Positions 540 to 42,300 of a stretch of 64,000 bases of DNA are shown here, piece after piece. The stretch lies in NCBI GenBank assembly GCA_033439295.1, contig JAVTLE010000016.1:2294001-2358000 (forward strand), given 5' to 3'. This DNA comes from Deuterostichococcus epilithicus. Its lineage: Eukaryota; Chlorophyta; Trebouxiophyceae; Prasiolales; Stichococcaceae. The notes beneath the pieces are model-generated. The model made no database searches and had not been told where the DNA came from. It saw only the letters and a program-made list of their open reading frames with translations. The position numbers and the translations under genes are program-made. How positions within the stretch are numbered: position 1 is the first letter of the stretch; every line of letters starts with the position of its first letter.

Positions 540-3500
540 ATGGCGTACCAACTGGACGCGGGCAGTGCCTCGCGGCTGCACGGCGGTGACGCAGGCTTCA
601 GCCCAGTTATGCAGTGTGTGGGTGAGTGCTGGTTGAGCTGACACCGCGCGACACTGTGTCTCTGGGCTTGTCAGAATCGTATGCGTTGGCAGTTCGCTGC
701 TGTCATGTTCGTTGGTCTGTATTCACCGCCTGCAGCTGCCCTCTCAAAGTCAAAGTTGAGCAGGGCAAGTCTCCGTCCGGCCGCCTCACGCTTGGGGAGT
801 TTGCAGCACGTTGCCGCTCTCATTTTGAACCCAAAGCGTGCTGCATAGCCCTCACTGGTCGCTTCGCCGGCAATTTGCGAGTTTGCCAGACTCAAGTTTC
901 AAGACCAGGCCACCGTGGTCTGTCTCTTGGGAAAATCTGCACTAGTCGCTACAACCGTGCCTAGAGACCGCGCTCGTGAGATGGTCGCACTGCCTGCAGG
1001 CGTCAAGCGGCTGAACACCAATGCCGGTGCCAGTGCCGAACGCTTTCGGCTCGCGCTGTCAGACGGCGAGCAGTATGTGCAGGTCAGGACCGCCATCAGA
1101 TTGATGCGCACTGTGCATCACTCACATGTACAGGACTGAAGGCACACCACCAACGTGTTGGCCCCTCAACATGTTGTGCTACATTAACCTCGTGCTGTCT
1201 GGTCGAAATCTTGCAGCGTGCACGCATGGCGCCGCGCCGTGGCTGTGAGTGCCCTACCTGAGGGAATAGCACGTAATTTTGCAGGTCATGATGGCGACGC
1301 AGCTTAATGAGATGGTGCGCAGTGGCGAGATCGCCAATGGCACCGTTCTCCGGGTGGAGGAGTGTCTGGCCAACAATGTCAGCAACAGCAGGTGTGTGCT
1401 GTCACCATCGCCTATCAGCTAGCGCACCCCCTCTCGTTGCGAGGCTCAATGCTCAATTGAGGAGTTCTTTAGGTGGAGGTCGTACCAGAGAGGTCAGGCA
1501 GTCAGGGTGCAATGCAGCCCCGCAGTAGGCCAGCTCGTGGGTGGCGCTTTCTGTGTAGCTCTTCCTGTGTGCCATCTGCACTCCCACTAAGCACCTTTCG
1601 TGTGATGGCACAGGGTGCTCATTGTGCTCAACGTAACGCCAATGGGCCCGAGCGACCCCATCGGCAATCCCAACCCTTCACGCGTGCCCGACCCACCTGC
1701 AGGCAACTGTTGTATATTATCACACCGGATTTTCCCCCTGGGAGCGGCATGTTCTTGAATTTGAATTGAGCCGTTTCGGACCTCCGCCAGATCGTGACAT
1801 CACGACCTGCTGCTACTGCAGATGGCGTCGCCCCGGCCGTCCCGCCGCAGCAGCAGGCAGGCGGCTATGGCGGCGGCAATGCAAACAGTGCCACCGCCAA
1901 CGGCGGCATGTATGGCGCGCCTGCACCGGCACCTGCGCCCGCGCAGCCCATGTATGGAGCGCCTCAGCCGGTCGGCGGCGCCCAGAATGGCGGCGCCCAG
2001 AATGGCGGCTATGGGCAGGGAGGCAGTGGCTATGGCGCCGGCGGCGGCGGCTATGGCGCCGGCGGCGGCGGCNNNTATGGCGCCGCCGGCGGCGGCTACG
2101 GCAACGCGAACGGCGGCGGCGGCGGGGGCTATGGCCAGAATGGCGGCGGCGGCCCAGGCGGCTATGGCCAGAACGGCGGCGGCGGCCCGGGCGGCTATGG
2201 CCAGAACCAGCCGGTGCCGAACTACAGGCGAGGACACCGTCGGCACTGTGTAGCACTGCACCTGTTCCTGCTTCAGCGGCCGATGCTGCCGCTGTGCAGC
2301 ATGGCCGCATCCCCAATCATCGGAATGTACTCAGTCTCTGAGCAGTCAAATCACTCAGTCTCCTGACACGCCACGGCCACATAAGTCATGACGCGTGACC
2401 TCGCCCCTGCCGCAGGGCTGGCAACTCGGTGGTCGCGCACGACCAGGCGCCGCCGCGCATCGTGCCCATCAACTCGCTGAACATGTACCAGAGCCGGTGG
2501 ACGATCAAGGCGCGCGTCACGCAGAAGGCGCCCAAGCGGACCTGGCACAATGCACGCGGCGAGGGTCGCGTCTTCAGTGCGTCCCCTCCGATGCACATTG
2601 CAGCTCGATGCTTTGCTGCTCGCATGATGCAGCTGTGTAGCCGATGAGTCGGCACTTGATGGCACCGCATGCTGGCTCTCGAGTGGTTGTGGATGTGTCA
2701 GGCTTTGTTCGTACTGCTGTTTCCCGCATTGAAACCTCTTTGGCAACTCGAGCCTCGTTCTGCTGAGTTCGAAGTCGGCACGCCTGCTGACTGTCCGGTG
2801 GCAGATACTTCATCTGCAAGCTGCGTCCAGCATTTGGAATTTGCGCTCAGCAGCTTCTGGTTCGTATCTCTCCAACCTGATGGCAGCACGCCTGTCCGGC
2901 TGCAGGTTTTGCACTGGGCGCCGAGGCCGGCGAGATCTTGGTGCTTGTCATCGGAACAATTTTTCGACTTTCTAGCCAAGTTTCTAGCCAGCAATGCGTC
3001 GTCATTGAGTCACTGCAGTGGCCCTTTTCACTCGCAGGCTTCACCTTGCTGGATGCTGAAGGTGGTGAGATCCTGGTGTCCGGCTTCAACGAGGTGGCGG
3101 ACAAGTATGACCAGATCGTGCAGCGCGGCGTCATCATCACGCTGTCCAAGGCCAGCGTCAAGAAAAAGCGGCCGGGGGTGCGCTTTGCCAGGCCTACTCC
3201 GCAGCACCCCTGCATCTGGGCCCTAAGAGCTGCCTGCCTCCAGGGGACGAAGATCGACTGGAGCCACTTCGCAGGTTCTCCGACTGGGACCTCTGCCTGT
3301 TCAGGGAAGATCCCGTTTGAAAATGACCAAGGCGGTTGCTGTGTTGCCGCGCAGGGCTTGCAACATGATGCGCCGCGAGCTACAGCCTGATGCTCTTTGT
3401 TGCTGCCTCTGCCAGGTGCCCCGTTCAAGGCAGCCTCGTGTTGTCCACTGCAGGGCTTCAACACGACGCGCCACGAGTTCGAGATCACGCTGGAGAGCCA

Positions 3501-6500
3501 GTCGCACATCGAGGTGGTACCCGAGGACCAGGAGACAGCCGCCATCCCTGCCATCCAGTACCACGTTCGTCTTTGAATCTTTGCACATTCCATTGACAAA
3601 TGGCAGAAATGTTCCTCTGCCCACTTGCACCATCCTCTGCTGCGCTACCATCCCCATCATGCAGTGCAACGTGCGTCTTTCGCGAATGCACAGTGAAGGA
3701 GCTGTCCAAAAAAGCATGCTGCTCGGGCCCAGACGCGATACTTGAGGCCCATCGCTACTTGGGCTCCAAGTACCGCGTCTGCGATCCGAGCAGCATATCT
3801 CTCTTGGACAGCTCCTTCACTTTGCACAACATGATTCCCCTGCCCGACTTTGCCTGGCTGATTTGCGCTTTGGTCAACTGGTGCTGCAAGGCTCTGCCAA
3901 AATCCGTGTGGACGCTGGTTGGGATGATCGCTCGATGACCACTCCTTCATCGAGCACGACTGCGTGACAGAAGCTCTTTCATAAGTGCATTTGAGACTGG
4001 GGCGCGTGCCTGCACACACGCATCCGCCGCGTGCGCTGGCGAGCAGCAGTGCACTCAGCACACTGCTGCTGGCTTCATGTGCGCCTCATCCAGTCGTCCA
4101 AGCTACAATAATTACGTCATACCGCACAAGACCGCGAGCCACCAGCTGACTGATCCATTTGACAGCCGACGGACTGGACAGCTGACTGGCTTTACAGCTG
4201 ATTGATGCCCCCCACGTGCCCAATTTCCGCAGTCCACGCGCATCAAGGAGATCGAGGCGGACCCATTGCGCGATGTGACTGATCCGGCATGCGCCTGACC
4301 CACCCCACCCGCCGCCCCGCAGTTCAAGCGCATCGAGGAGATCGAGGGCATTCCCGCCCGCACCAACGTGGACGTGCTGGGCGTGGTGCACGCATGTGAG
4401 GGCGCAGTGGCACTGCAGCTCAAGTCGGGCGCCGACGCGCAGAAGCGGTCCGTGACCATCAAGGACGCCTCCAACAAGCTCGTCGAGGCGAGTGCCCGCA
4501 TGTGTCTGCGGAGCAGCGCAGGCGGCGGCGGGCCGTCGTGTGTCAGGGTGGCAAACGCCCCACACGGCGCTGTCCAAGCCCTGCACGTCGACTGTCAGCT
4601 GGGCGCAATGCCGGGCGTCCGTGCTGCCATGCTGCAGCGTGCGCCAGCCGCCTGGCCCCACTTCCTGTCCATCCCCCACTGCCGCGGCTGACATGCCCGC
4701 GCTGCGTGGCCGCGCAGCTGACGCTGTGGGGCGAGTTCGTGAACGACCCGGGGGCGCTGCTGGAGGCGGAGGTGGCGGCGCAGCGGCACCCCATCATTGC
4801 CGTCAAGGACTGCCGCGTGGGCGACTTCAACGGCAAAACGCTGTCGACGCTCAACTCCAGCACCGTGCAGGTCGACCCCGATATCCCGCAGGCCGGCCAG
4901 CTGCGCGCCTGGTGCGTCGCTTCATCATCATCGCCGGCAGCGTGGGTGTCGGCAGCATCGAGTATGCACATCCGAGAGTCGAGGCCCGCTTTGCACAACG
5001 GCTATTGTCTGCCGGCTTGCGTCATGCTGGACTGAGCAGGCTCTCGTCACACCGACGCTTGCCGCGCTGGGGTGGCGGACTCGATGTGGATTTGCACACT
5101 CTCATGGATGCACGACCAACAAGTGGAAGGAAATCAGGGTGCACCGCCAACAGCTGAGGCGTGCGTGCACCAGGTACGACAATGGCGGACGGGACGCGGA
5201 CGCGGTGGCGCTGTCCGATGCGCGCGGCGGCGGCGGCGGCGGCTTCCACCGCCGCTGCACCTTCGGCACCATCAAGGACGAGGGCCTGGGCTCCAGTGGC
5301 ACGGCATTCATTATGGTGAGCTTTTCTGCTCATCAGTCATCAGAGCGAGGCTCCTGCCTCCGAGGCTCCTGCCTCCGAGGCTCCTGCCTAAATTCGACGG
5401 CGCAGAGGCTCCGGCACAGGCTGCGCACAGGCTCCATTGCATACTGAGGGGAGTCTGCATCATTGCAGGCCTCCAGCTCTGCGGCACAGCCTCTGCGAAC
5501 AATACCTGCGCACCCACAGTAAGCCATTGTGCACACCGAGCCAGGCTTGCATCTGGCTGAAGCGTCACCCACTGTGCAGGTGAACGGCACCGTCACCTTC
5601 GTGCGCAATGAGAACATGTCGTACCCCGCCTGCCCCCTGCCGTATGGCGGCAAGACGTGCAACAAGAAGTGCACCGACAACGGCAGCGGCTGGTGCGCCT
5701 CCTGCCTGATCATGCTTGCAGGCGCTGTGACTTTGCGCAGACCTGGCTGCTGTGCAATCGTGCCTGCAATGTTGACCTGCCCGCTCCGCCTTGCCACCCC
5801 CTCGGACGTCACGTCTTGACGAAGTGCTGGCGCCTGCTGCAGGTGGTGCGAGCGGTGCCAGTCGGTCTGCGAGCCGCAGCACCGCTATATTCTGGCCATC
5901 ACCGCCCAGGTGTGTGCGTTTCCCCCGCCTCCTCCCCCTGCGCGCTGCAAGGCGGCCCGGCCCATGCGGAACTAACTGCTGGCGGCCAGCCTGGAGCTAA
6001 TTCAGGCTCGGTATCTAGTCGCCCACGTCATGCTGACCAGGCCTCCAACCTGTGGTACCTTCGCCGTCGCAATTGTTGCGCCCCTTTTCCTGCATGTTGC
6101 CTCACAGGCCTCCCCTGCCTTCCCCTGTGCAGGACCACACGGGGCAGCAGTGGCTGACGTCGTTCGAGGAGACCGGGCAGCAGATCATGGGCATGAGCGC
6201 GCAGGAGCTCAAGGCGCTGGAGGGCTCGCCTGCCTTCGACACCGCCGTGCAGGCGCGCCCCCCTCCCTCGCGGCACTGGCCTCGAGCATCTCCCCAGTGC
6301 GCATCTGGCCGCAGAAGCAGCCCCTGAACCCTGCACTTGGCCATAGACGCGGCCTTCCCTCTGGCGTACTATCATGCGCCTCCATGCCCAGTACCAAAAG
6401 TCGAACCTCCAGCGATGGGATGCCCGCCGCACCCTTTGGATACCTCGCCGCTGAACCCCAAACCCTGAACCCTGCAGGCGGCCAACTTCCAGCAGCGGAT

Positions 6501-7642
6501 GTTCAAGCTGCGGGTGGCGGAGGACAGCTACAACGACGAGACGCGCATCAAGGTGTCCATCCGCAACACGGAGCCGCTCGACTACGCCACCGAGGCCGGG
6601 GTGCGGCCCCCGATGTCTTCTCATGAAGGCTCTCGACCTATGAAGGCTTTCGATGTACCTGAACGGCAGGCTGGTGCTCGTGTTCAGACGCCGCCAGCCA
6701 CCTGTGCGTCGAGCCGTAACACGGAGCCCCTCGGCCGTGCACCGAGGACGGGATGCGATTTCGCCAGTCAAGTCTTTGCTTTGTGCATCTCCTGTTGCCA
6801 GGAGCAGGGCCCATGTGTGCATGGACGTTGCTCACAGTCATGGACAGTATTTATCTGCAGAGAACTTGCTATGCAAACGCTAGCTTTCTGGCTGGCCTTG
6901 CATGCCTGCAGTCAAGGAGACTGCAGGTCAGGATCTCAGCTGTGTTGTGTGAGAAAGAAACAGTGTCGGATTGAGACTACGTTTGGGTGCTCTGCAGATA
7001 CTGTTGGGCGACATCGCCAAGCTGCAAGCCGGCGAGCCCATCATGCAGCCGCTGCCCGCGGGGCCAGCGCGCCAGGGCTTTGGCGGCAACGCAGCTGGCG
7101 GCGGGTTTGGCGNCGCCNGCNNGCCNNCTGGNGGCGGCTTTGGCGGCGGCGNNCCCGGGGGCGGCGGCGGCGGCGGCGAAGGTGTTGTGTGCCAATTAGA
7201 TTTTGCTGGCATGTCGCAGACGCAGCCAGGTGGCGTGCCCTTCATTGTCGGGCGCTGACGGTCGATCCTCGTAGTAGTTGCATTGTGGACTCTAGGGCTG
7301 ACACCAGCAATGGCTTCCTGTCAGTAGGATACATGGTGCTTGCAGCCGCTCGCCTCCCCTCAACGCATGCTTGCCTTCTCTCAACGTATGCATACCAACA
7401 GCTGCGGAAGACACACAGCTCTGCATGCAGCCGCTGGCTGTGCATCTTTACGATGGTTGTTTCATTTCGAAAGGTGGCGGCGGCTATGGCGGCGGCGGCT
7501 TCCAGGCCCCCGCACCCGGCGGCAATGCTGGCGGCGCAGCCGGTGGCGACGCCTGCTTTAAGTGCGGGCAGAGCGGCCACTGGAGCCGTGACTGCCCCAA
7601 CACCGGCGGCGCGAGCAACGTGGGCCAGTACCAGAGCGGCGA

Positions 7643-7693
<51 letters not shown>

Positions 7694-8400
7694 AGCTGGC
7701 GGCGACTGCTTCAAGTGAGTTGCAGCGTGGCTCGCGACTTTCTGGCGCTTCAGCTGCTCTTTCACAGCGTGCAAAGCAACACTGCAGCCTGTCGAGTGCG
7801 ATTGAACGAACGATTCTGCAGCATGGTCTACGGAGTGGCAAGGTGTGTATGCTCAGAACACGTGTGTGCACTGTCCAACTGGGTATGCCTGATTGTCTGG
7901 TGATTTCCCGTGTCTTTGGCGGCAGGTGCGGCCAGCCCGGACACTGGAGCCGGGACTGCCCCAACCAGGGCGGTGCCGGAGGCGGCGGCACCGGTGGTGG
8001 CGGGTTCGGCGGTGGCGGTGCGACTCTGCCGTTGACTGCATCATACACTGATGATGAGAGGCCGCAACCATCCGGCAACATGCAAGGGGCTGATAACATT
8101 CTGCCCGTCGACTGAGATGAACTCCAGCAGTGTCTTGACACAGGCCTCAAGGCCTGGCTCTCACCCTTGCTTCTGCGCTACACAGGCGGCGGAGGCGGAG
8201 GGGGCGGTGGAGGCCGCGGCGGCGACTGCTTCAAGTGCGGTCAGTCCGGTCACTGGAGTCGCGATTGCCCAAACCAGGGGGGCGGTGGCGGCGGCGGCTA
8301 TGGGGGCGGCGGCGGCGGCGGCCAACGCGCTGGCTTTGGCGGCGGTGGCTATCGCGGCAGAGGCGGTGGAGGTGGAGGCTATGGTGGCGGCGGCTTTTGA
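540..8400 (+). CDS. RPA1: Replication protein A 70 kDa subunit with three CCHC zinc knuckles
   Basis: Single-stranded DNA-binding subunit of the RPA heterotrimer, acting in the nucleus in replication, repair and recombination. Nineteen exons can be followed: 540-621, 1000-1082, 1285-1391, 1614-1702, 1822-2227, 2416-2576, 3038-3177, 3454-3564, 4323-4487, 4718-4911, 5174-5315, 5580-5692, 5843-5909, 6133-6252, 6478-6600, 6998-7181, 7474-7714, 7926-8017 and 8186-8400. Domains in order: RPA70N-like start ([22 protein letters not shown]); a Gly/Tyr-rich linker (exon 5); OB fold DBD-A ([17 protein letters not shown]); DBD-B ([10 protein letters not shown]); DBD-C with a four-Cys zinc site (YPACPLP, CNKKC, CERC); then Gly-rich spacers with three [14 protein letters not shown]-type knuckles. 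C-terminal knuckles are known in plant RPA1A/C-type proteins; three is many. Introns after exons 4, 5, 9 and 14 use GC donors. Two low-complexity stretches contain N bases, so exon 16 is incompletely read. Confidence 0.93.
2073..2075. other. Ambiguous bases in Gly-repeat coding region
   Basis: Three N bases interrupt a GGC-rich repeat in exon 5 of RPA1. The repeat length here is therefore uncertain. Similar N bases lie at about 7113-7153, 27127, 29812 and 56618-56633. Confidence 0.9.
2902..2955 (+). repeat. Intronic echo of RPA1 exon 7 start
   Basis: This intron segment resembles the acceptor plus first bases of exon 7 at 3034-3090. Both begin GCAGG, share a TGGnnGCnGA core and continue into GGnGAGATCnTGGTG. 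It looks like a decayed tandem copy of the intron-exon boundary. Confidence 0.6.
3351..3387 (+). repeat. Intronic echo of RPA1 exon 8 start
   Basis: GCAGGGCTTGCAACATGATG here matches GCAGGGCTTCAACACGACG at the exon 8 acceptor (3450-3485), and the similarity continues through GCGCCnCGAG. By eye about 28 of 34 positions agree with one inserted base. The copied AG could serve as a cryptic acceptor. Confidence 0.7.
3687..3827 (+). ncRNA. Long intronic hairpin, candidate small-RNA precursor
   Basis: In the RPA1 intron between exons 8 and 9, 3687-3751 and 3759-3827 form inverted arms of about 65 bases with a loop of about 7. The arms share GTGAAGGAGCTGTCCAA, ATGCTGCTCGG and CAGACGCG, with roughly eight mismatches or bulges. 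The shape fits a miRNA-like or hairpin-siRNA precursor. It could also be the relic of an inverted duplication or a small MITE; no terminal repeats or target-site duplication were recognised. Confidence 0.5.
3929..3954. repeat. Short inverted repeat
   Basis: GCTCGATGA and TCATCGAGC are perfect nine-base inverted arms around an eight-base loop, about 100 bases after the long hairpin in the same RPA1 intron. Confidence 0.6.
4228..4270 (+). repeat. Intronic echo of RPA1 exon 9 start
   Basis: CGCAGTCCACGCGCATCAAG followed by GAGATCGAGG resembles the exon 9 boundary at 4318-4352 (CGCAGTTCAAGCGCATCGAG then GAGATCGAGG). The copy lies about 90 bases upstream and retains the AG, so it is a potential alternative acceptor. 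Confidence 0.75.
5344..5390. repeat. Three-copy 15-bp minisatellite in RPA1 intron
   Basis: The unit GAGGCTCCTGCCTCC is repeated about three times head to tail in the intron after exon 11. Confidence 0.8.
6712..6756 (+). repeat. Intronic echo of RPA1 exon 15 end
   Basis: CGTAACACGGAGCCCCTCGG followed by CACCGAGGnCGGG resembles the 3' end of exon 15 with its donor (6561-6606: CGCAACACGGAGCCGCTCGA then CACCGAGGCCGGG). Here the copied edge is the donor side, and the original GT has become AT. Confidence 0.75.
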
Positions 8401-8439
8401 TGTGCACAGCCGTTGGTGTGTGTCCGCTTCGCCCACGTT

Positions 8440-8444
8440 TGTAA
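8440..8444 (+). terminator. TGTAA polyadenylation-type signal after RPA1
   Basis: TGTAA, the usual green-algal poly(A) signal, lies 40 bases after the RPA1 stop codon. This is a pattern match only. Confidence 0.45.
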
Positions 8445-8659
8445 GCTGAGTCTCCAGGATTTCGTTTTTGCAGTGGGGCCCCCGAGAGCGGGGATCCAGC
8501 CTTTCAAACGTTTTCATGTACTTCTAGGAGGGGGTTAGGCCATTAAGAGCAATTGGCAAAACAGGAAGAAGGCTGTCAGAGATGTTGACTGCGATCTGGG
8601 CAGCAGGTGCAGACTGGTGCATCGTGCGCCAAACACATTTTCGGTTCCAGCTCTAAGTT

Positions 8660-10490
8660 CTAGGGTGCCAGGCTGCTGGGGCGGCTGATGCCGTCGCTCA
8701 GCCGCTTGCGGAAACGCTCCTCCTTGTTCACCTCCCGCTCCACCCTGCAGCAGGCGAACGCTGCAAGATCAAGGCAGTAAATCGGTACCTGCCTACTCAC
8801 AACATTTTAGCCCAACCATTGACCCCCGCCGTGCTCTCAATCACCACCTTTTACCCTGACCGTTCACGCAGCGCCCCCACACTCCAGGGCATCCCTGCAG
8901 CACTGCTCCAGCACCGTAAGCAATGTCGACTGGTTTGGCATCCCTGCCGAACCGTGGGGCGTCCCTGCCGAACGTTCTTATAGTTACTGTGCCAGCTACG
9001 CACCGCTCGGCGAAGGGCGTGTGACGGGGCGCCAGCCGCTGGTCCTCCCGATACTTAGCTACCTTGTTGTCCAGTCCCGCCACCTGCAGGCAGTTTTCTT
9101 GCACTGGAGCCGTTGAGCTAGTCCTTTGTGGGAAGGACTGGCAGTGCATGCCTCGCGCCTGCACTTGCTGCAGTGGTCCATGCTGACGCCTACAAGTTTG
9201 TGCCAATGTCCCGTGGAATGTCTGTCACACCTGCGGCGTGTGCAGCCCGGTGGGCGTGGCCGCCAGCACGAAGTGGTGCTGGCTGAGGCCCGGCGTCGAA
9301 CACACGGTCTGCGCCGCCGAGGGCTGCGTGCTCGTCTGCAGCACACTCAGCCATCGTCACAGCACTGCTGTGTAAGCCCGTTTCAGGCACTGACAACAAG
9401 GATTTGCCCTGGAAGGCGCAGTGCTGAAACTGTCAGCACTGCTCAGTGCATCGGCGTGTAGATGTCGTCTCTGCATGCCCGATGCCTCTGCTCTCTCTCA
9501 GATATCAGAAAAGAGTTGCCCTCGGAACAGGCTGCAGCGCACAGGCATACCGAGGCAGACGGCGTCCGCGGCGCCAGCTGCAGCGGCGGCAGCACCAGCT
9601 GCGAGTGCTGCTGCTGCGGCGCGGCGCAGGGCAAGATTGCGTCCCACTCGGTCGCCAGCTGCCGCGTCGGGCCGCCGTCGTGCCTGCGCCCGCGCTGCTC
9701 GGCAACCGCTGGCCGCGGCGATGGTACATTCTCCTTGCCTGCCGCGCCCTGGCCGCTGACCGCCGATGCTGCATCCGCCTGACTCGCCATCTCCCGCTCA
9801 AGCCTGCGCATCTCGTAACAAGGCGATACAACAGCCAACCAGTGCAGGGGCCAATGGGCAGCAGCAGCGGACAGCTGCTCCAGCCTCTTTGCAAATTTCG
9901 TTTCTGTGACTGCAACGAAGAAACACTTGATGATGTACACATTGGAGAAGTTTACCGTCAGCCCCACCTGACTTCGAAGGGCGTGTTGCTCCAGCGCAGC
10001 GCCTTCTCATGCGGCGGCGCTGCGGCTGCCGGGCTGGGCGTCTGTAGCACAGTGGCAGCGCTGGCTGAGATCCGCTGCAGCTGCGGTTGCTGCGGCGCCG
10101 GCTGCCGCTGTGCGGCTGCAACAGCCGTGCAAGGCCGCTGCTCCAGGTCGCTGCGGTCGGCATCGCCGTCGCACAGCGGCAGCAGCAACGGGGAGTGGCG
10201 TGCAGCTGCGCTGTGGATCGCCAATGCGCTTCTGGCTGGCGGCGCCTGGTCTGCGCTGCTCAGAGCCTGCGCACGCACGATCAAACGTCACGCTGATAGG
10301 CTGAACGTCCCTTTGAGATCCGCAGGCTGCTGCGTCGGACGTTAGTTGAGTTATTGGGACTCTTTTTTCGACAGGGCACCATTGCCTGATAGGCCGGCTT
10401 CGGCTGGTTAGCGGTCTCCCCCGCCGCAGGCTTCTTCGGGGTGTGTTTGTCGCGTCGCTTGAAGCAGCCGAATATGCTCAGCAGCCCCAT
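8660..10490 (-). CDS. Unassigned protein, possible N-myristoylation start
   Basis: I do not recognise the family. Going leftwards on the minus strand, coding-like exons are about 10490-10360, 10264-9967, 9906-9545, 9340-9227, 9092-9006 and 8742-8660. The first begins MGLLSIFGCFKRRDK, which fits an N-myristoylation and palmitoylation start followed by basic residues. The middle is Ala/Gln/Pro-rich and probably disordered. The last exons are charged and helical (VEREVNKEERFRKRLSDGIS) and end with TAG. The first exon-exon joint is not resolved, because no good GT donor keeps the frame, so exon 1 could belong to a separate small gene. The locus converges on RPA1 (260 bp between stops) and diverges from the methyltransferase. 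Confidence 0.45.
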
Positions 10491-10816
10491 GCCACCACAG
10501 ACCATGAGTACAGCACCAAGCTTCAGGATGGTCAAGCTTCGAGGTGAGGTGCAATTGGGCAGACGATGAGATACGTCTCGCAGCATCCACAGCTACTTCT
10601 TGGGCAGATTTAAGCCTACGGATGTGTGAGCTGATGGGATGGCGAAGTCTGAGTCGGACACAAGTCCACCAGACCACAAGTCCTACGAGCAGCTCGTACA
10701 GCTTCATTTGTAAATTGAATTTACTCACGTGCCCTTGTTGCTGCGCCGAGCACCTGATCCTTCGCTACTTCGTGGCATTCTGTCACTTTCAGAGACGGGA
10801 GGACCTCAGGTTTGTC
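10491..10816. promoter_or_regulatory. Divergent intergenic region
   Basis: About 330 bp separate the putative minus-strand start at 10490 from the plus-strand start at 10817. It is probably a shared promoter. I see no specific motif. Confidence 0.35.
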
Positions 10817-13800
10817 ATGGCGAGGGCGGATGAAGGCGCCTTCATCGAGGCGCTCATAGCATCCGAGCGCATCAGGGACTGGCTGGCTGCCATCAAGCAA
10901 CCTGAGTCGGCGAAGTGTGGCATGTGCTGGATTATCACTGACTGCGAGTGATCTGGAGGTTTGATTGCCTGCTTGTTCGAGGATGGGCACTCATGCCACC
11001 GGCTGCCGCGGCGTCCGGAGCTCTGAAGGCTATCACGTTTTGTGCCTCCCAGGCATCGGGCAGCACTTCAGCAGCTTGAAGAGTGGGTCTTGCAACGCGA
11101 TGCCTACGCTGAGGAGGTGACGTGATGCGCTGTCGTGCCCCACATGCCCGTTCCACTGACGGCTGCGTCTGACGGCCGCACAATAAATAAGGCTTGATTG
11201 GTGGCCGCGTCGCTAACGCAGGCGCGGCAGGCGGGCGCTGTGCCCATCCTTACAGGCCTGCTCAAGCGCACAGGCGAGCGACGCTAACCTGACTCCAAGC
11301 ACGGTGTTGCTGCCAGCTCCGAGCCCTGCATGGCCCGGCTGACCGCTGAGCACCACTTGGACGCCGTGCGACCGGCCAGGGGTGTGTTGAACTGCAGATG
11401 ATGAACGCATGCAGACATCGGCGGCGCGGGTCATTGCAGCCTGCAGCGGCCCCTCGGCAATGCCGTCGATGGTGTGTTTCCCGACCCCGGCACGTCCCTC
11501 CTGTGCTGACTCGAAGCACAGCATCAAGCACTTGCATTGCAGCCAGTGTGAGCATGATCGGCGGTTGCCGAAAGTGCTGCGTATGGCCAACCAATGTCGC
11601 ACAGCTCACGGGGACCCCTTCCTGGTGCGCAGACCCGGGTGTTCAGTTATGGGAAGGCCAGCGTGGCAGTGTGCGAGGGGGCACTCGGGGACGGCCTCGG
11701 CGCTCGTGTGTGGCTGTCAGCGCAGGTGGGCCTCACATGCTACCGCACCATCCCACAGCCCTGGGGGGTGGCGCCTGGCGCCTGACTGAGCATCGCTGGA
11801 GGAGGCTCTGGTTGCAGGGGCGATGCATGTCATGCTTCCCATACACAACACAGCATCTCAGCATTTGACGCTTATGAGCGCCAGTATGTTTGCAGATTTT
11901 ATCAAGCCTGAGGCCGAACTCCGAGCCAGAACTGAACATCCCATGCTGCAGGCGTTGGCGCGCACGATGGTGGCGGCGCCGCAGCTGGTGACCGGCTGCA
12001 CCGTGCTGGAGGTTGGCGCCGGCGTCGGGCTGTCAGGGCTGCTGGCCGCCCGCCTTGGCGCCGCACAGGTGTCGTCATGATGTCCACGCCCTCACAGGCA
12101 TGTGGCGCTCATGTGAACCTGGCCAGCCCATGCGTTCGGCAGTGAGTCACCCACTGTCCGCCATCCATGGCTCGTAAATCGGTTACGGGCTGGCAGCCTT
12201 GTTGAAAAGCCGTTGCTTCCTGGAAGGATGTGAACAACACGGCCGCACCATGTCTGCCACGCGGGGCTGTGGCTGTGGCGGCCCCGATGACATGCTCACT
12301 TCTGGTGGCTCGCAGGTCACGCTGACCGACTATGAGGCGCCTGTGCTGCGGTGCCTGCGAAGCTCTGCGGACGCTACGGCGGCCCTCGACGGGGAGCGGC
12401 TGCCGGGCGGCATCCGCCCGCCTCAGCAGCAGCCGGCTTCAGGCTCCGTCACGCAGGCGGACCCATGCTGTCTGGACGCCAGCGCGGATCCAACGATGGG
12501 TCCCATGGTGGCCGGTGCCGCCGAGGCTGCCAATTGGGACCCTGAGGATGCCGATAGCTGCGAAGACTTGGACGAGTTCCTCGCGGACGATGGCGGCGGC
12601 GGCGGCAGTGGCGGCGGCGGCGGCAGCGGCGGCGGCGGCGGAAGCAGCTGGGACTGGGTGCGTGGCGCGCTGCCCTGCCTGCTGCTCTCTGCTGCAGTCA
12701 GCTCCCCGCCCGCTGCTCTCTGCTGCAGTCAGCTCTCGCGACCTAGGGCTTGGAAACCAGAAGCCTGCAGCGCATGTAATGGCAGTCTTCAGAGAGCCGC
12801 AACGGCTTCGGCTTTGTAGGATTGAAAATAGGACAAACAGTGGACCCAAGTCTTGGTACATCGTCCTCAGCCGTCGACCGGCGTCTGCGCGACAGGGTGC
12901 CGTCGCGGTCAGGCGCTTGGACTGGGGCGACGCAGCCGCAACTCTGGACAGCACCGAGCCGCGGCAACCCAGTGGCGGCGCAGCGGATCGGAGCGGCGGC
13001 GCAGCGAAAGGCGTGGGCGGGACCAGCGGCGCGGCCTGGACCGACGGCCCGCCCGATCTGGCGGTGGACGCGCAGTTCGAGGCGAGTGCCTCTGCCTGCC
13101 GTGTGATGCACAAAATGAGTGAAAGTATCTCCGTACATCCGGTCCTCGTGAACCGGAGTTGCCCAGGGAAAACGCCGGCACAAACGCCGTTCCGCGGGCG
13201 CAGCAGCCAGCCCAGCTGCTTGCTCCTCTCCTCCTTCCCGAGGCGATGCCCATGCCAGGGCCAGGAGTCGCTGAGGGCGTGCCATCTCAACGCGTCGCCC
13301 CGCAATGCATGCCCACGGGGTCGTCGGCAGGCATCATCTATAAGGGCGTGCCCCCCAGCGGTTTATCCACCCTCCTGCCCTGCATGCAGGCAGTCATCGG
13401 CAGCAACAGCACGTGGGAGTGTCCCTCACCAACCGCAGCGTTCAGGACATCCAGACTCTGACAGATGCAGTGCCATCACCATGCAGGTGATCATAGGCAG
13501 TGACGTGGTGTACGAGCTCCGGCACGTGGCGGGGCTCGCGGCGGCGCTGGCGCGGCATCTCGCGCCGGCCGGCCGTGCGCTGCTGTGCTGCCCCGTCCGC
13601 GAGCAGGCACGCCGGCGCTGCGATGTTTTATCTTTGCAGCACCTGCTTATCGATCGTGTGGGCGGCGGTACTGCGCTGCTGTGCTGCATCCGTGAGCAGG
13701 CGCGGTGTCGCTGCATTCTGGTCAGGATCCACCCCACTCCTCGATGCTGTGGGTGGCGGTGGATGCTTGTTGCTATGGTCATGAGGCCGCTGGCTGAATC

Positions 13801-21846: not shown

Positions 21847-24800
21847 ATGGGCGCCGCTGCGGCTGGAGCTGCGCGTCCCGCGCCGCTGCTCAAGGAGCTA
21901 GGCTTCCTTGCGGACACGCCGCTGGTGCACTACGCGGATCGCTACTTCGGCGAGTATGCGGACTACGGCTTGGCGCTCGCGATCGCAATTGTGCTGCCGT
22001 TCATGCGCGGCGCCCTGGATCAATTCGTATTCAAGGTACGGCAAAGTGTGGCTTCAAGCGTCACCACACGTGGACACGGTTGTGTGCACTTGAAAGAGGT
22101 CGTTTGGAAGGGCAGGTGCCGAGCGCTGGCACACTGGGCCTACCAAGTCACCTGTGCACTCTTTGCCACACGCAGCCGCTGGGGCGGCAACTTCTCTGCG
22201 GCAGCAGCGTGACGCCCACCAAACAGCAGCGGGCGCTCATCTACAAGTGGAAAGGTGTGTTGATGTTTTTCCCTTTGCTGTACTGGCTGTGCCTCCGCCG
22301 GGACCCGCACCTGCCGCTCGTCCCTCCTCCCCTCCAGAGCATCCACCTCCAGGACGCTCCTCCAGGGCACCTGAGCGCATGCCTGCCAACCGTGAGGATT
22401 TGGATATCACCGTGCAGAGTCATGCTGGAAGGCGTTCATCTACCTCTCCATGGCCGTCGCCGCCTTTGCGGCCAGCTACCAGGAAGCGTGAGTGGCAGTC
22501 CCTTTTCAGTTTCAATATCCTTCTGTTCAGCCCAGCTGCGTTTGTGTGCAGACACAGCAGCCAGCCCTCATATGCAGTGTGCCGCTTGTATGGCGCGCCC
22601 CTCGGCCCGCTGGCTGCCGAGCGCGTCAGCAGGGGAGGCTCACCACTGCAGAGTCTGCCGCTGCCGCTCCTGGGGCGGTGATTGTCAGGTTCCTACGACC
22701 GCCCCGCCGCGCAGCCGGTGCTGCGCAGCTTTGCCATCGTCAGGAGGCGGCTCTAAATGCACCACATCCCTCCAACTTGTGAGCCATTTTTGTCGACACC
22801 CCGTCCCCCGCGCCGAAACTGCAGATGGTTCACGCGCCGCCGAGCGCTGTGGGAGGGCTGCACGCAGCTGCCCTGCAACTACGATGTGCCGAAGGCCGTG
22901 CGCCTGGTGTACTGCCTGGAGATGGGCCACTACCTGCAGGCGCGCCGCTGGACCCTTAGAAAGCCTGCGCTGCTCCCGGCTGTCCACATAGAGAACACAC
23001 AGTGACACGAGTGTCGTGGCTGGGATCGGAGACTGCGGCCGGCCGGTTGCTGGTGCCGGGTGGCGTCAGCATGTTGGGGGCGCTGCGAAGCATGGCAGCC
23101 GGCCACCGGCAGGCCGACACAGCCGGCGGCGCGTGCCGGATGTGAGGCAGACGCTGGGCAGCGGGCAGCCAGTGTCCAGGCAGCGATCCAATCTTCCCCC
23201 CCCCCACCCCACCCCCAGGGCTTGGAGCCTTGACTCGTGCTGCCGTAGCGCCTGGACGCTCTCGCTCCTCCAACAATCCCGGAGCACGCTGCCTGAGTGC
23301 ACCGACCGAGTGTGCCGACCGCACGCCCTGCGCACCTCGCATGCGCAGGCGACGCGGCCTCCACTGTTTGGGGTGTGCGCCGCAGCGCAGGCGGTCCTGC
23401 CGCTGCTAGGCAGGGTCCATTCAGGGTACTCCGCTGACGCGCAGGCGATCCCGTCGCTGCTGTTTTGGGAGGTGCGCCGGAAGGACTTTGCGGAGTCGCT
23501 GGCGCACCATGTGGCCACCCTCATCCTCATCGTCTACTCCTATTATCTAAAGTACGCCCCTGCTGCTTCACCCACTGGATGTGAGAAAATCAAGAGCCCG
23601 TTCACACCGCCAGAGAGGCCGTTTCTCCTGCCAGTTTCCCTCCCGGCGATCGCTTCTGCCCGCACCAGCCGGGCAGGTGCCGGGTGTGTGTGCGGCCCCT
23701 GCGGTCGTAGCACCAACACCGCCTGCCGGCGGGGGGCGGAGGCTGCGCCCTGCCCCCGGACTCATTCAGATGTATTCAGTCAGATTGTATTCATGTTTCT
23801 CGCATACTTCTGCCTGGTCTCCTGCTGACCCTCCTTCCCTGCATGTGCTCAGCCTGACCAAGGTGGGCGCGGTGGTGTTCCTGTGCCATGACGTCAACGA
23901 CATCTTCCTGGAGGGCGCCAAGATGTTCCGCTACGTCAAGTGGCGCACGCTGCCCAACGTCCTGTTCGTCATCTTCGTGCTGTCCTGGATCGCCAGTCGC
24001 CTGGTCATATTCCCCACCTGGGTCATCCGCTCCACGCTGCTGGACACCCTGGTGCGATACTCCTTTCCATCAGAAAGCACCTTTGCAGGCCATCGGCGGC
24101 CTGCCCCTGCCCTCGCCACAGCTCACGGTCAGCACGTTCTTGTGTGGCCCAGCTGGCACGGGGCCTGGGGTGCCGCCGCACTGAGCAGCGAGTCCACGTC
24201 CGGTTGTGCTGAATCGGCGCTTGATGCGATGTCAATTGTCTCAGAGGCCAGAGCTCGTGGACTTGATTGCGCACCGACAAATGACATCAGTCATACAATG
24301 TATAGCATTGCAACCCCGCATTGATGTGCGCAGAGTGTGGCCAGGGAGAACAACGTTAATGTGCACCCACACTACGAGATCTTTAACGGGTTCCTCATCT
24401 TCCTGCTCATCCTTCACATCTACTGGTGCGCGTTCGGTCTGCTGTCTGCCTTCCCCACTGCAGCTTAGGCAGAAAGGCTGCTCGAATTCCACCCTGCATC
24501 GCCCAACGCCAGCGTTCCGGAACAAGGCGCACTTGCACAGCACTGCACCAGGGCGGCACTGCCCAAGCTCCCAAGGCAGCTGTAGCGCTTTCGACACACT
24601 GTAGGGGCGGCAACAGTCCAGCGCATGCACCTCGAGCGACATAACGAGGTGCATCATACAGCGCCCCTCAGTTCAATTGTCATCAGACGCTGTTGGCCCA
24701 TCGCCTTGCGTGCATGCGCGCAGGACGTGGCTCATCATGAAGGTGCTGGTCAAGGCGCTGACCAGCAAGGACGTGGACGACGTGCGGGAGTCCGACTCCG

Positions 24801-24987
24801 ACGAGGACGACACCAAGGACGACTGAGCGCTCCGCTTTGCGCGCGGTCTGTGCCGCGCCGCTGATGCTGGCGCCATGCGCGCAGGTCGTTGATCATCAAG
24901 AAAGTGCTGGTCCAGGCGCTGTCCACCAAGGGCATGCACGATGTGCGGGAGTCCGACTCCGACGAGGAGAACGTCAAGGACGACTGA
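21847..24987 (+). CDS. LAG1: LAG1-type ceramide synthase with alternative last exons
   Basis: N-acylates sphingoid bases in the ER membrane. Exons 21847-22035, 22176-22254, 22419-22487, 22825-22939, 23444-23551, 23853-24051 and 24334-24425 join in frame, followed by 24724-24826 or 24885-24987. The TLC/Lag1 domain shows KESCWKAFIYLS, the EAWFT entry, LLFWEVRRKDF, the double-His LAHHVATLILIVYSYY, and the Lag motif CHDVNDIFLEGAKM; several membrane segments are evident. Both last exons are 103 nt, join at the same phase (YW|T or YW|S), and end in acidic Ser-Asp tails (RESDSDE...KDD stop). The intron after 22939 has a GC donor (CTGCAG|GCGCGC). Confidence 0.92.
23342..23415 (+). repeat. Two intronic echoes of ceramide synthase exon 5 start
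   Basis: The exon 5 boundary at 23438-23480 (GCGCAGGCGATCCCGTCGCT then GTTTTGGGAGGTGCGCCG) has two degraded copies upstream. One at 23381-23415 reads GCGCAGGCGGTCCTGCCGCT. One at 23342-23383 reads GCGCAGGCGACGCGGCCTCC, then GTTTGGGGTGTGCGCCG. Unit spacing is about 40-60 bases. Confidence 0.75.
24724..24826 (+). CDS. Ceramide synthase alternative last exon A
   Basis: Preceded by GCGCGCAG. It encodes a final membrane-helix edge (TWLIMKVLVKAL) and an acidic tail ending DDTKDD. Roughly 84% identical by eye to exon B over 103 bases; the similarity runs on past the stop. Confidence 0.8.
24885..24987 (+). CDS. Ceramide synthase alternative last exon B
   Basis: Preceded by CATGCGCGCAG, the same acceptor context as exon A. 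It encodes SLIIKKVLVQAL and a tail ending EENVKDD. The frame and stop are intact, so it is a usable alternative to exon A rather than a dead copy. Confidence 0.75.
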
Positions 24988-25822
24988 GCGCCGCTTTGCG
25001 TGTCGTCTGGCTGCGCCGCTGGTTCTGGCGCCAACCCCGGAGCCGGCGGCGAGCTGTTGGTTGCAAGACACCCGCCCGACGCCTGACGGCCGTTGCTGCA
25101 ATGGGTCGGAGCTGGATCATCTTGTGGAAGGGCTAATTGGATCATCGGCAGCGCATCCCACAATGCAAGGGCACAAACATGCAGCCAGATTGGCCAGCCT
25201 TGATCGAAGCGCACTGTCCAAAGCTGGGAGACCTTCGAAACTTGGTTTTCACAGAGACCGGGCTTACATACCTGTTTATAATGCCGCTGACAGCTTAGTG
25301 GTGATGGGCTTGTTGCTGTGTATCGAAAACGGTTTGGCATCGTTGTGTGGCAAATGCAGGTGAACCTAGTCTTCAGATTTGGCTGCGCAGAGTTTGACGG
25401 CAATCGTTTCGGCACCTCACTATCAAGTCCAAGTCCCACCTCCTATACACCTACCTTTTTATTTATGACTATTCGCGCTCGCGGGAGTTTCTCACACAAA
25501 TCAAATGTGGGACGAGTGTGCCTCAATCCGTCGCTTCACCTAGCAACTAGCAGCCGACCAATTGTGTCAGGCTGCTCGCCTGACATTGAAGCAACGCATC
25601 AGACGTGGTGTGATACAGCTGAAGTAAGACCCCGCCGGAGTTCGGCCCGGGCGTGCTGGCGCTGAGGGATGCTATTGTGAGACGGCTCCGATGCAGATAG
25701 CAGTGCTTGTTGTTGCCCCGAGAACGATGCTTGAGTCGAGCCACAGCGCCATGTAGAGGAAGGCATGCACCGCCGTCCATGGCCCTTCGTGACCACGACT
25801 GAGGCCAACCGCCATGCCAGCC
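24988..25822. other. Intergenic, nothing recognised
   Basis: Lies between the ceramide synthase 3' end and a small minus-strand gene. Local AT content rises (25260-25500), as expected for 3' UTR and intergenic DNA. No repeat or RNA gene was seen. Confidence 0.4.
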
Positions 25823-26571: not shown

Positions 26572-38863
<12,292 letters not shown>

Positions 38864-39311
38864 CGCAGGGTTAACCCGCAGCTGTGCACATGCGCAGCGG
38901 GGCAGCCCGCTTGATGGTTTCGCCTTGTCGGATCGTACTTTATTTCGCAATGCTGAGTGGACCGTGAGCGCTTCTGTGCGCGCATGGAAGATGCTTTCGG
39001 TTCCTCGCCCCGAGCTGAAATGCTCATCCACTCTTCACTGCAACAGGTGGATTTCAGCGGCGTAAGCCAGGCAGCAGAGCAGCCGAAGTCAAGCTCCCAG
39101 CAGATCGGTAGCGGCAACCTGTATGTGCATTACAGCCCCAAGGTGCCTTAATGGCTAGCGCATGCGCCAATTGGGCGCCGCCGCATGCACCACAGCGCTG
39201 CCGCCGCATGTCCAAACGCTCCCACCCATCAGCCTGAAACCAATCTACCTGATCAACAGAGGAACAAAGAATGGCGGCGCAACAAATGGCCCGAGCCCGA
39301 GCCCAAGGTCT
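38864..39311. other. Intergenic between NFU and VIP1
   Basis: Holds the NFU 3' UTR and VIP1 promoter, both on the minus strand. On the minus strand a TGTAA lies near 39135, about 180 bases after the NFU stop, and is a possible poly(A) signal. Confidence 0.4.
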
Positions 39312-42300
39312 TCAGTTTTCGAACACGACCGACTTGATGTCAGGGAATTTGTCCTTGATGGCCGCCTGCACGCGTAAGAATACGACAGATAAACGTCAAT
39401 GGATGCAACATTGCCGCTCCCAGCAGGCAGTGTCCAGCAGGGACCATTCTTGCATTTCTGCAGCGCTGCACGAGCTGCCGGCCAGCCAGTGGAAGTCACG
39501 ACACGGCACGCCGGCAGGCGGCCAGCTCACCTTGACGCCCATTGCGATGGGCGGCGGGCCGTCGTACTTGACGGTGCACTTGCCGCCCTTCACCTCTCGC
39601 ACCTGCGCACGCCCACGTCTGCAACTCAGATGTGAGGGCATCTCTGCGCAAGCCTTCGGGTCGAATGCATCGGGGACCCACCGATGGTGCATGTCTGCGT
39701 CCTGCTGCGGGTGTGATGGACACAAAGGCGTTGAATCTGAGGAGTCTCACTGTCGGAATTGGTGAACATGAAGGGCGCACGAGACAATGGAGCCGCTGCA
39801 ATTGGAAATGACGGGGCGCCACACGTACAGCTGCGAGACCATGCATGGATGAACACGACAGTGTACATGGTCCCAGATTGATTCCTGGTGCCGCACCACG
39901 ACGGAGCCGCCGTAGTTGGAGATCGCAGGCCGCAGCATGTCTAGGTGCGCGTCCACGCTGGCCATGGTGGCCGACGTGTCAATGGCGCCGACCTGCTGCA
40001 CCTCCTTCAAGGCGTCGCCAAATGCGCTCTGTGGGCCAGTTCAAAGCAGCGCTCAGTGATCAGCAGAAAACCCGAAAGCAGTCCACCTGCTGTACCTGTG
40101 TTAGTGCGCTCTGCGGCAAGAGGGGAGAGACGCTCAGCGGAAGCGGCACCGGACAGCACAAGAGGTAAGGCGCCGTCGATGCCACCTGCCATGGACCCTA
40201 AAACCCACGAGTGACATGCTTGTAGACCCCTCGACTTCTGCAGCCGTGTGCACCTTGACAACCATGTCAGCCACACGTGGCTCCTCAGTGTGCCTGATGC
40301 AGACAGCCCGCAGGTGTGGGTTGCCTTGACAGAAGTGCGGCTCAGGGAGCCACCTTGAGGGCGCGCTCGATGCCCATCTTCATGGTGGCTGTCGACGATG
40401 CACAAGTGCCGCAGGCGCCCTGGAATGTCGTGGAGACTGCGTCAGCAGCAGTCGTCGGGACGGGCTTTGCCATGCTGCGCGGTGCACAAGGGTGTAGTGC
40501 ATGAGGGCGGGCCGCACAAGGGCCAGTCAACGCCCTCAGCGCAACAGCTGCCCTGTGCACCCGCGGGCAGTGAGAGGGCATGCCAGGTGCCGCAGACCCG
40601 CGAGGTTCATCCAGTCAGGGTCCAGCGGTTCACGTTGGTTCCCGGTGGGGATGCTCATGCAACAACACATGCGACCATGACGCCGCAAGGGACCAGACTG
40701 GGGGGTCAGAGCATTCGAAGGGCCGCAGGACGGCTCAAGGAGCTGCACCTCCAGCTGCAGCATGACAACTCCGTTGGTAACACCCGCCACCGAGACGTTG
40801 CCGCCGTCGGCTATCAAGTACGGCCGGACCTCCTCCAGCGCGCGATCGACACTGTCCACCGTCATCTCCACTGCTGGCGCCGCCTCGCCATTGCCTGCAG
40901 GAGCAGATTGACTCGTGAAACTCACTACCGCTTCCTCTTTGAAGGTGGCACCATCTTCAATGCACAGTGCACGTGTCCACCTTGATCTCCGCCGCAGGCG
41001 CCGCCTGGCCGTCGACTGCGAGGACTTCGAAGACAGGGTTGCAAGAAACGATATGGGAAAGGACTCAGCATATGACTGTTATCTCCAGCGCTGGCGCCGT
41101 CTGCATTACCCCTGGAGGGGAAGACCCTTGGCAGAGTGCGCAAGCATCGCATTGCTGAGGTCCTTGCAGTGCATGCTGTCAAACTCATGGCAGAGGCCCT
41201 GTGGTGCGGAGGATGCCAGGACGAGGTCTGCAGCTGCGGGGCGCACCGATGGAGCGGTGCACGTTGACGCGCGAGAAGGGGCTGTCGATGGGCGCCGCCG
41301 CCGCCGCCGCGGCCACCGGCTCGGCCGCGGGCGGCGCCACCGTCTCTGCTGTCTGCCCGTCAATGACGCTGCTCCAGTCGTCGCCCTCCACTGCCCGGAT
41401 GAGGTCCAGCCTGCAGAAATGGCTTTACAGGGTTCGAAGCCTGTGGCATGCCATGTCGAATGGTGCCATGTTGAACGCTGTGTCTGCAGCCTCACCCACC
41501 TCGCTCCCCCTTTGTCTTGAGAACACCCCTGCCAACTGCGCAGAGCTGGCACAGTATGTACATCAGCTGCTGCACCGCCAGTCACGCAGCAAGGCAGAGT
41601 ATCTATCCAGACCGACTGTACATGAAGAACCCAAGCTGCAGGAAAGCCCCGCGGGGGTGGGCACCTGCGCTGCTTGGCGTCGCGCGTCTCGCCCGGCACC
41701 GCATCGCCCAGGTTCTCGCCCATGGCCTTCCGCATTTTGAGCTTCTTCTCCTCGTACGCTGCCCGCTCCGCGTCAGACATCGTGGCGGTGCTCACGCCCG
41801 TCGCCCACAGCTCTGCCTCCACGCCTGTGCGTGTGTGGCGGTTGCCTGTTTTCGTGTTCTGATCTCCACGAGCAGGTGGCTGAGAGGCATCGTGGCGGTG
41901 CTCGTGCCCGTCGCCCACAGCTCCGCCCCCACGCCTGGCTTCCGTGACCGAATTTGCCAGTCGCAGAGCGGCACGTAGAAGCTCCCTGCGCTTTGTCGTG
42001 ATACACCTGCTGCGCTGCAGGAGCTCGCGCCCCGCCCCGCCTGCTTGCGCTCGGCCCCCGCGTCTGCCTGCCGCCCAGTCACCATCTCACTGCAGCAGTA
42101 CACTGCGTACGGAACACAACGCTGCCACAACACATGAGCGGAGGCCCCACCGTTGCCAGGCGGCGTGGTGCCAGCCTCCCGCATCCAGTTGGCCGCCTCC
42201 CGCTCCAGGTTGGACCGCGTTGCCATGGCCTTGTTAGCGAACACCATGGCCTTAACGTGCGCGCAGCGCTCGTCGCCCACACGCTCAAGGTGGCCCTGCG

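Follow-up and report, generated by a model that had tools for sequence, protein, structure and literature searches.

Short duplications that land close to their source have been described in several settings. In the accessible portion of Pace et al. (2009; PMC2671141), repair-mediated proximal duplications are presented as short, closely linked copies that include exons and intron splice sites, and synthesis-dependent strand annealing is proposed for them; the insertions treated there are at least 50 bp long, the proximal ones have a median of 147 bp, pairs within 50 bp were removed, and 753 of 1,136 lie within 3 kb. The other nearest systems are intron gain by tandem genomic duplication and the internally symmetrical stwintrons. 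This work concerns a 64,000-nucleotide (nt) stretch of the green alga Deuterostichococcus epilithicus (contig JAVTLE010000016.1, positions 2,294,001 to 2,358,000; the window), in which introns carry decayed copies of the edges of the exons that adjoin them. We refer to such a copy as an echo and to the exon edge that it matches as its source or parent. Intronic copies of adjoining exon edges exist in this DNA far above chance, which suggests that the genome repeatedly copies short DNA about a hundred bases away and that its introns grow partly from their own exons. No description of exon-edge echoes in introns was found in the open-access literature searched, which lacks most subscription journals; the related subjects that came up there were proximal repair duplications, tandem genomic duplication, stwintrons, and exon duplications.

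The window (G000:C14:2294001-2358000 in our numbering) comes from a genome of 46.8 Mb in 21 contigs. It was analyzed together with the adjoining 200 kb and with 20 kb each of contigs C6 and C1, for a total of 304 kb, or 0.65% of the genome, with a G+C content of 60 to 62%. Positions written as C14 index count from the start of L005 (2094001), and the window begins at index 200001. Genes were modeled on both strands with a gene finder that combines codon-aware Markov exons with splice-site weight matrices and was trained on the 304 kb from conserved peptides; all gene structures referred to here are predictions of this kind rather than RNA-based models. The gene finder returned 609 exons and 577 usable introns, and predicted introns make up 69% of the sequence. 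Pfam supports the window genes for RPA1, a TLC-domain protein of the ceramide synthase type, NFU, PPIP5K/VIP1, a Methyltransf_16 protein, and an aldolase protein. Because NFU, VIP1, and their neighbors were fused into a single model, edges were assigned to these genes by eye. The predicted donor consensus of the sample is AG/GTGCG, with the slash at the junction (G at +3 in 81% and C at +4 in 47%), and the acceptor consensus is GCAG/G; the usual donor consensus is GTAAGT or GTGAGT.

The excess was measured on 292 of the 577 introns, chosen without regard to echoes; introns with a flanking exon shorter than 45 nt or with a weak coding score were dropped. Source windows of 40 bases were compared with their own intron and with other introns trimmed to equal length. 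At an ungapped score of at least 16, the segment from -10 to +30 around the acceptor matched its own intron in 10 of 285 cases, against 0.10 expected, and the first 40 exon bases (0 to +40) did so in 10 of 284, against 0.0 expected from other introns. The segment from +10 to +50 still gave 8/284; deeper in the exon, the counts were 3/267 (+40 to +80), 1/220 (+60 to +100; 0.25 expected), and 0/175 (+80 to +120), and source windows in the intron interior gave 0/274 (-60 to -20), 1/265 (-80 to -40), and 1/239 (-120 to -80). Expected values across the acceptor series, taken from other introns, ran from 0 to 0.25. At donors, the final 40 bases of the exon (-40 to 0) matched their own intron in 7 of 285 cases, against 0.25 expected. 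The signal is maximal at the exon edge and fades within about 60 bases. Introner elements would place one element in many introns; in this comparison across the 292 introns, the exon-edge sources were without matches in other introns. The original prediction, drawn from the letters of the window, had claimed that introns here repeatedly hold decayed copies of the adjacent exon edge; the rate in own introns does stand well above that in non-adjacent ones.

For the echo counts, low-complexity sources were removed beforehand. Direct echoes with a score of at least 18 were found at 29 of 954 edges (about 3%), against 2 inverted, 0 reversed, and 0 complement matches. The junction and flank counts below rest on 28 echoes with a spacing of at most 260, and the codon-position counts, made with no such limit, on 29. 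Gapped alignment returned 64 edges with a score of at least 15 (39 acceptor and 25 donor), the weakest of which include chance or low-complexity matches, and a strict initial low-complexity filter let through 14 of 294 local segments. Chance likeness between exon edges and introns was entertained as an explanation and is ruled out by the comparison of own with other introns, by orientation, and by the window draws given below. Echo-bearing introns are longer (median, 394 nt; n = 30) than other introns of at least 100 nt (261 nt), possibly in part through detection bias. They are also clustered, with 6 adjacent pairs against 1.5 expected (P 0.002), although conserved genes may merely keep their echoes recognizable.

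Echoes keep a characteristic distance from their parents. In 32 strong echoes (limit, 260), the spacing runs from 69 to 221 and falls between 82 and 172 in 30; modulo 3 it is 0, 1, and 2 in 11, 14, and 7 cases, which shows no frame preference. The direct-repeat spectrum of the whole sample (ungapped, score of at least 18) gives 73 repeats per 100 offsets at 105 to 120, 13 at 180 to 210, 1.8 at 400 to 620, and 1.8 at 2000 to 2600. This broad peak at spacings of 105 to 180 is concentrated on exon edges; a second peak at 15 to 45 (47 to 60 per 100 offsets) consists of ordinary short tandem repeats. Versions based on BLAST were also run; for spacings below 60 bases, the BLAST spectrum was set aside in favor of the ungapped offset count, as a 31-nt tandem repeat at 12673/12704 was missing from its list. 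At a score of at least 18 and a spacing of at most 400, there are 67 local pairs: 41 involve an intron with an exon or exon boundary, 12 are intron-intron, and 14 are other. In six pairs, both copies straddle predicted exon boundaries, e.g., in the ceramide synthase gene at 24.7 to 25.0 kb and at C14 index 177773 and 46224. Two further local repeats stand out: a unit of about 34 nt in three head-to-tail copies within a predicted intron (L016:1074-1179; by eye) and a complex repeat at L014:8077-8438 with spacings of 105, 194, and 299 and copies in a predicted exon and intron.

On the acceptor side, the typical order is intron, echo (25 to 82 exon bases, counted from the exon start or close to it), an unrelated spacer, the normal acceptor, and the exon; on the donor side, it is the mirror image. 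The spacer measures 32 to 107 bases in 26 of 28 echoes, donor cases included. Apart from those in one repeat-rich intron, spacers showed no excess homology when compared with their own neighborhood, which was the extent of that search. The motif CTGAC is present in 5 of 14 acceptor-side spacers, and real acceptors have their enriched 5-mers mainly at about -24 to -34, so the echo usually sits outside the functional end of the intron.

In the window, 16 hand-picked edges were re-tested against 2000 draws from 215 introns outside it, which makes the P values post-selection; 13 of the 16 matched better than all 2000 draws. The window echoes follow, each with strand, source, and matching positions and, where drawn, the number of draws that did as well.

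41885..41937, minus strand: NFU exon-start echo; source 41775-41827, acceptor 41824, spacing 110; 48/53; 0/2000 draws.
40974..41019, minus strand: nearer NFU exon-start echo; source 40853-40898, acceptor 40894, spacing 121; 37/46; 0/2000.
41075..41102, minus strand: farther NFU echo of the exon start at acceptor 40894; source 40858-40885, spacing 217; 23/28.
39784..39844, minus strand: NFU donor-side echo; source 39898-39958, last exon base 39897, spacing 114; 42/61; 0/2000.
36599..36655, minus strand: VIP1/PPIP5K donor-side echo; source 36702-36759, last exon base 36709; 41/58; 0/2000.
35819..35854, minus strand: VIP1/PPIP5K donor-side echo; source 35975-36010, last exon base 35981; 28/36; 0/2000.
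33377..33408, minus strand: VIP1/PPIP5K acceptor-side echo; source 33292-33322, acceptor 33316; 24/32; 0/2000.
32588..32641, minus strand: VIP1/PPIP5K acceptor-side echo; source 32483-32538, acceptor 32535; 44/57; 0/2000.
32715..32752, minus strand: second, farther VIP1/PPIP5K echo of the edge at acceptor 32535; source 32496-32533; 28/38.
23343..23382, plus strand: ceramide synthase acceptor-side echo; source 23439-23479, acceptor 23445, spacing 96; 31/41; 0/2000.
23378..23407, plus strand: second ceramide synthase echo of the edge at acceptor 23445; source 23432-23461, spacing 54; 24/30.
6708..6757, plus strand: RPA1 donor-side echo; source 6555-6605, last exon base 6600; 40/51; 0/2000.
6322..6343, plus strand: RPA1 echo, matching chiefly the end of the intron; source 6463-6484, acceptor 6478; 19/22; 0/2000 with 16 nt of intron in the source.
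4227..4257, plus strand: RPA1 acceptor-side echo; source 4317-4347, acceptor 4323, spacing 90; 28/31; 0/2000.
3648..3680, plus strand: RPA1 donor-side echo; source 3542-3574, last exon base 3564; 26/33; 0/2000.
3351..3379, plus strand: RPA1 acceptor-side echo; source 3450-3477, acceptor 3454; 25/29; 0/2000.
2914..2943, plus strand: weak RPA1 acceptor-side echo; source 3049-3078, acceptor 3038; 22/30; 39/2000.

The copies that the original prediction had named in NFU (the 48/53 echo and two copies of 40853-40898 or part of it) and the ceramide synthase pair are present. The RPA1 echo placed at 2902 is the weak match listed last. The echoes that it had reported in the methyltransferase gene are not confirmed, with 566 and 533 of 2000 control draws as good at the two edges, and the donor-side copies that it had put at three number at least five in the window. 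The RPA1 echo at 6322 depends on its intron bases: with only 6 nt of intron in the source, it was not recovered, and the best match was at chance (470/1000, from a pool that included own introns). The gene finder called part of the ceramide synthase echo at 23343..23382 as an exon (23349-23372) and likewise called the RPA1 echo at 4227..4257 (4233-4274).

Other repeats lie in the same genes. A methyltransferase intron holds a 31-nt head-to-tail repeat at 12673-12734 whose copies are 94% identical and resemble an intron 3' end (CTGCTGCAG), and at 13576-13760 the same gene has a pair with 68% identity. In the ceramide synthase gene, the last exon is completely duplicated in tandem together with its acceptor (24713-24884 and 24874-25042; unit of 161, 143/172 matching); both copies end in a stop and resemble alternative last exons. 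The end of RPA1 (7554-8280) encodes three motifs that look by eye like CCHC zinc knuckles, set within long glycine-rich stretches.

The original prediction had the copies spanning the intron-exon boundary, and this is not general. When identity is plotted by position for 21 acceptor and 12 donor echoes, it does not rise above background on the intron side, and on the exon side it declines over the first ten or so bases. When exon-internal sources are allowed, 18 of 28 echoes (64%) come within 5 nt of the junction and 7 start more than 12 nt inside the exon. These counts weaken the idea that strong echoes are anchored perfectly at junctions. Four of the seven are doubtful (repeat-rich or low-complexity) yet were counted, and a fifth, at C14 index 36248 (= L008:6248), is the clear straddling case, and a young one: as we read the alignment, its homology extends from -36 to +55 around an internal gap of 26 nt, and a spacer of 48 bases comes next. 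Under exon-only detection, 0 of 24 echoes had an intron-flank score of at least 10; the gap at 36248 hides its flank, so 1/24 is the fairer count. A 60-nt test of 27 flanks gave scores of 5 to 10 for 26 and 15.5 for 36248, whereas a positive control of 12 segments of paralogous introns of comparable divergence averaged 15.9 (range, 7 to 23). The first version of the flank test gave 6.59 for own and 6.33 for mismatched flanks (27 pairs). Exon and echo differ by about 18% at first and second codon positions, from which a duplicated intron of that age would be expected to remain roughly 65 to 70% identical. Among echoes of at least 85% identity, NFU 41824, C1 13448, and C14 37738 have intron-side scores of 6 to 7, equal to controls, with an overlap z score of 1.7 at NFU 41824.

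An overlap test gave a mean z score of 1.02 against a shuffle null and of 0.62 (standard error, 0.19; 29 echoes) against a real-intron null, compared with 5.5 for paralogous introns. Six acceptors, 36248 among them, carry weak overlap signals (z scores of 2.0 to 2.5). There is thus a small residue of flank similarity, mainly at acceptors and inseparable from shared composition. Background identity and chance flank scores on the intron side indicate that most echoes consist of an exon edge with at most a few intron bases. The set is nonetheless mixed, with exon-edge copies in the majority alongside straddling and exon-internal cases, the latter including a young copy at C14 index 73135 (-86 to -29).

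Substitutions between exon and echo number 95/515, 90/509, and 125/512 at the three codon positions, with small indels on either side. This near-uniform spread is what decay without coding constraint would give, the third-position excess being attributed to the exon side, and the echoes look neutral rather than coding. A pair of tandem paralogues in L005 and L007 (C14 index 3.7 to 8.0 kb and 21.9 to 26 kb), dehydroquinase-shikimate dehydrogenase-like by eye, offers a usable internal clock for intron decay: over aligned columns, predicted exons are 88.7% identical and introns about 70%, the introns including a few unpredicted exons. Both paralogues carry the same donor echo, which makes that echo older than the gene duplication; by eye, it is conserved no better than the surrounding intron. 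One paralogue has roughly 100 to 160 nt of extra intron, with an acceptor echo that is absent from the other, and its edges are too decayed to read; the difference may reflect a gain in the one or a loss in the other.

In our judgment, the best explanation is recurrent short-range, same-strand copying into nearby introns, filtered by selection, and we rate its chance of being correct as about even. In this reading, nearby introns would repeatedly receive same-strand copies, recognizable over about 25 to 90 bases, of DNA that lies mostly within about 180 bases of them. The copying process is likely template switching in break repair or replication, of the kind that yields repair-mediated proximal duplications. 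Selection would remove copies that land in exons or create a complete competing splice site, and copies within introns would survive and decay neutrally. A copy of a conserved exon stays recognizable because only one side mutates freely; hence, the visible set would be made up of exon-edge echoes. We infer both the copying process and the role of selection, and favor them because they need only processes known elsewhere and accommodate the straddling and internal cases alike.

Simulated data from four simple models were put through the echo detector used on the real sequence, with contact within 5 nt of the junction and a flank score of at least 10 as readouts. Straddling tandem duplication gave 93% contact and 84% of flanks at that score; random local copying gave 46% and 23%; random copying in which selection acts against copies holding more than 12 nt of intron gave 32% and 3%; and exon-only edge copies gave 92% and 2%. 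Several results weigh against local copying with a selective filter. Random local copying that lacks the filter departs from the observed 18/28 and 0/24 (1/24 corrected). In a grid of 12 parameter sets, copies of 80 to 160 nt that include no more than 20 nt of intron agree with the observed contact (P 0.57) and flanks (P 0.13) but yield exon parts of 92 nt against 53 observed; copies of 50 to 120 nt with the same intron limit are marginal (P 0.12 and 0.06; exon part, 69 nt); and no set fits contact, flanks, and exon-part length jointly. Repair insertion would be expected to yield inverted copies too, of which there are hardly any. Despite the preponderance of intron, pairs within introns are outnumbered by exon-intron pairs (12 against 41), which faster decay explains in part. 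The 20-kb C6 stretch holds a single local pair within 400 bases at a score of at least 18, so echo density may vary. Local copying with a filter explains the frequent stop at junctions only partly; it copes least well with this junction-edge excess with short copies and with the scarcity of inverted copies, two facts that leave room for a process that is aware of splicing.

The original prediction had attributed the lengthening of introns to short tandem duplications of DNA straddling a splice site. Local short duplication does recur, and in longer introns, as described above; for most echoes, the straddling part finds no backing. Duplications of 80 to 180 bases across a splice site, with splicing at the outer site hiding the event and lengthening the intron, would account for the involvement of exon edges and for the longer echo introns. 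The copy at C14 index 36248 is a clear instance, the last exon of ceramide synthase, acceptor included, is duplicated whole in a 161-bp tandem, and the six acceptors with weak overlap signals, like the mean z score of 0.62, point the same way. The simulation of this model, however, puts 84% of flanks at the score reached by none or one of 24, the mean overlap is far below the 5.5 of paralogous introns, and the three named echoes of at least 85% identity are at control level. As a general account, it is unlikely, although it deserves a small share of our credence.

Copying could instead respect the junction: exon RNA that ends there (the free 5' exon, or the 3' exon with the last intron bases) would template an insertion into the intron, so that the introns of this lineage would be continually fed by their own exons from splicing intermediates. 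Background identity on the intron side, the 18 of 28 echoes close to the junction, the restriction to one strand, and the agreement of the exon-only edge model with the flank data are what such a process would leave. A pure edge model, on the other hand, predicts 92% contact where 64% is observed, seven echoes start well inside the exon, and identity is already declining over the first exon bases. The intronic AG, which a spliced exon lacks, is present in half of the better acceptor echoes (6/12), and the two echoes inspected by eye (NFU 41824 and RPA1 3038) showed no sequence of the upstream exon beside them. Selection can moreover mimic much of the pattern, as the parameter grid indicates, and we know of no splicing-aware copying process of this sort. 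We hold this account to be rather improbable.

It is very doubtful that the echoes are functional decoy or alternative splice sites maintained by selection. The original prediction had expected spare splice sites. With exon-only detection, half of the better acceptor echoes (6/12) have AG exactly where it should be, a rate clearly higher than dinucleotide chance, as do 6 of all 21, and 5 of 12 echo acceptors score above the 5% quantile of real ones when a shift of up to 3 is allowed. For donors, 4 of 10 echo sites score at least 4.5 (real median, 5.1; shift of up to 2 allowed), but an exact GT is kept in 2 of 12 donor echoes, rising to 5 of 12 within 2 nt. The retention of AG is no higher than that of a copied AG decaying at 18% per site (about two thirds), and a branch-point-like motif precedes the echo AG in 5 of 12, a rate between those of random intronic CAG sites (489/1556) and real acceptors (149/263). 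Near-uniform substitution across codon positions, small indels, and spacing without frame preference also speak against selected sites.

An origin as relics of whole-exon tandem duplication, as in mutually exclusive exons, is equally hard to credit. It would suit the six pairs that have a predicted exon boundary within each copy, and the ceramide synthase last exon, duplicated whole, is an exception to the partial copies; the exon parts of 28 echoes, however, measure 25 to 82 nt and have abrupt far edges, whereas exons are mostly 110 to 220 nt, codon-position counts are near uniform, and frame is not kept in the spacing. Intron birth through tandem duplication of exon DNA that contains AGGT, a known mechanism of intron gain that would also leave exon copies cut at a splice site, almost certainly does not account for the echoes, for that origin predicts the head of the downstream exon at the intron start and the tail of the upstream exon at the intron end (a score of at least 18 in 1 of 832 tests), and the echoes are arranged the opposite way round.

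To our knowledge, intron lengthening without transposons is poorly documented. If exon edges are copied often enough to show at about 3% of edges (29/954) before decay conceals the copies, many introns may be largely decayed local copies, and the exon provides a built-in clock and template for measuring them. If so, intron growth and the birth of cryptic splice sites would become measurable in any genome of this type.

Among known systems, internally symmetrical stwintrons (PMC8469720) are similar in that introns contain nested splice-site sequence. As characterized in the accessible part of that work, they are proliferating families with terminal inverted repeats, whereas the echoes are direct copies that match their own exon edge and not other introns. 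Tandem genomic duplication leading to intron gain, in the accessible parts of PMC3443670 and PMC4974935, likewise duplicates exon sequence into an intron with a sharp splice-site edge; here, the arrangement is the opposite one, and no new intron is evident. The echoes are best called a variant of local short duplication. As in repair-mediated proximal duplication, parent and copy lie close together on one chromosome, at the spacing of 82 to 172 seen in nearly all strong echoes and in excess over 2-kb offsets. They differ from the duplications set out in the accessible portion of PMC2671141 in that about 25 to 90 nt are recognizable, the spacing is mostly 82 to 172, and the copies lie on the same strand and are concentrated at exon edges.

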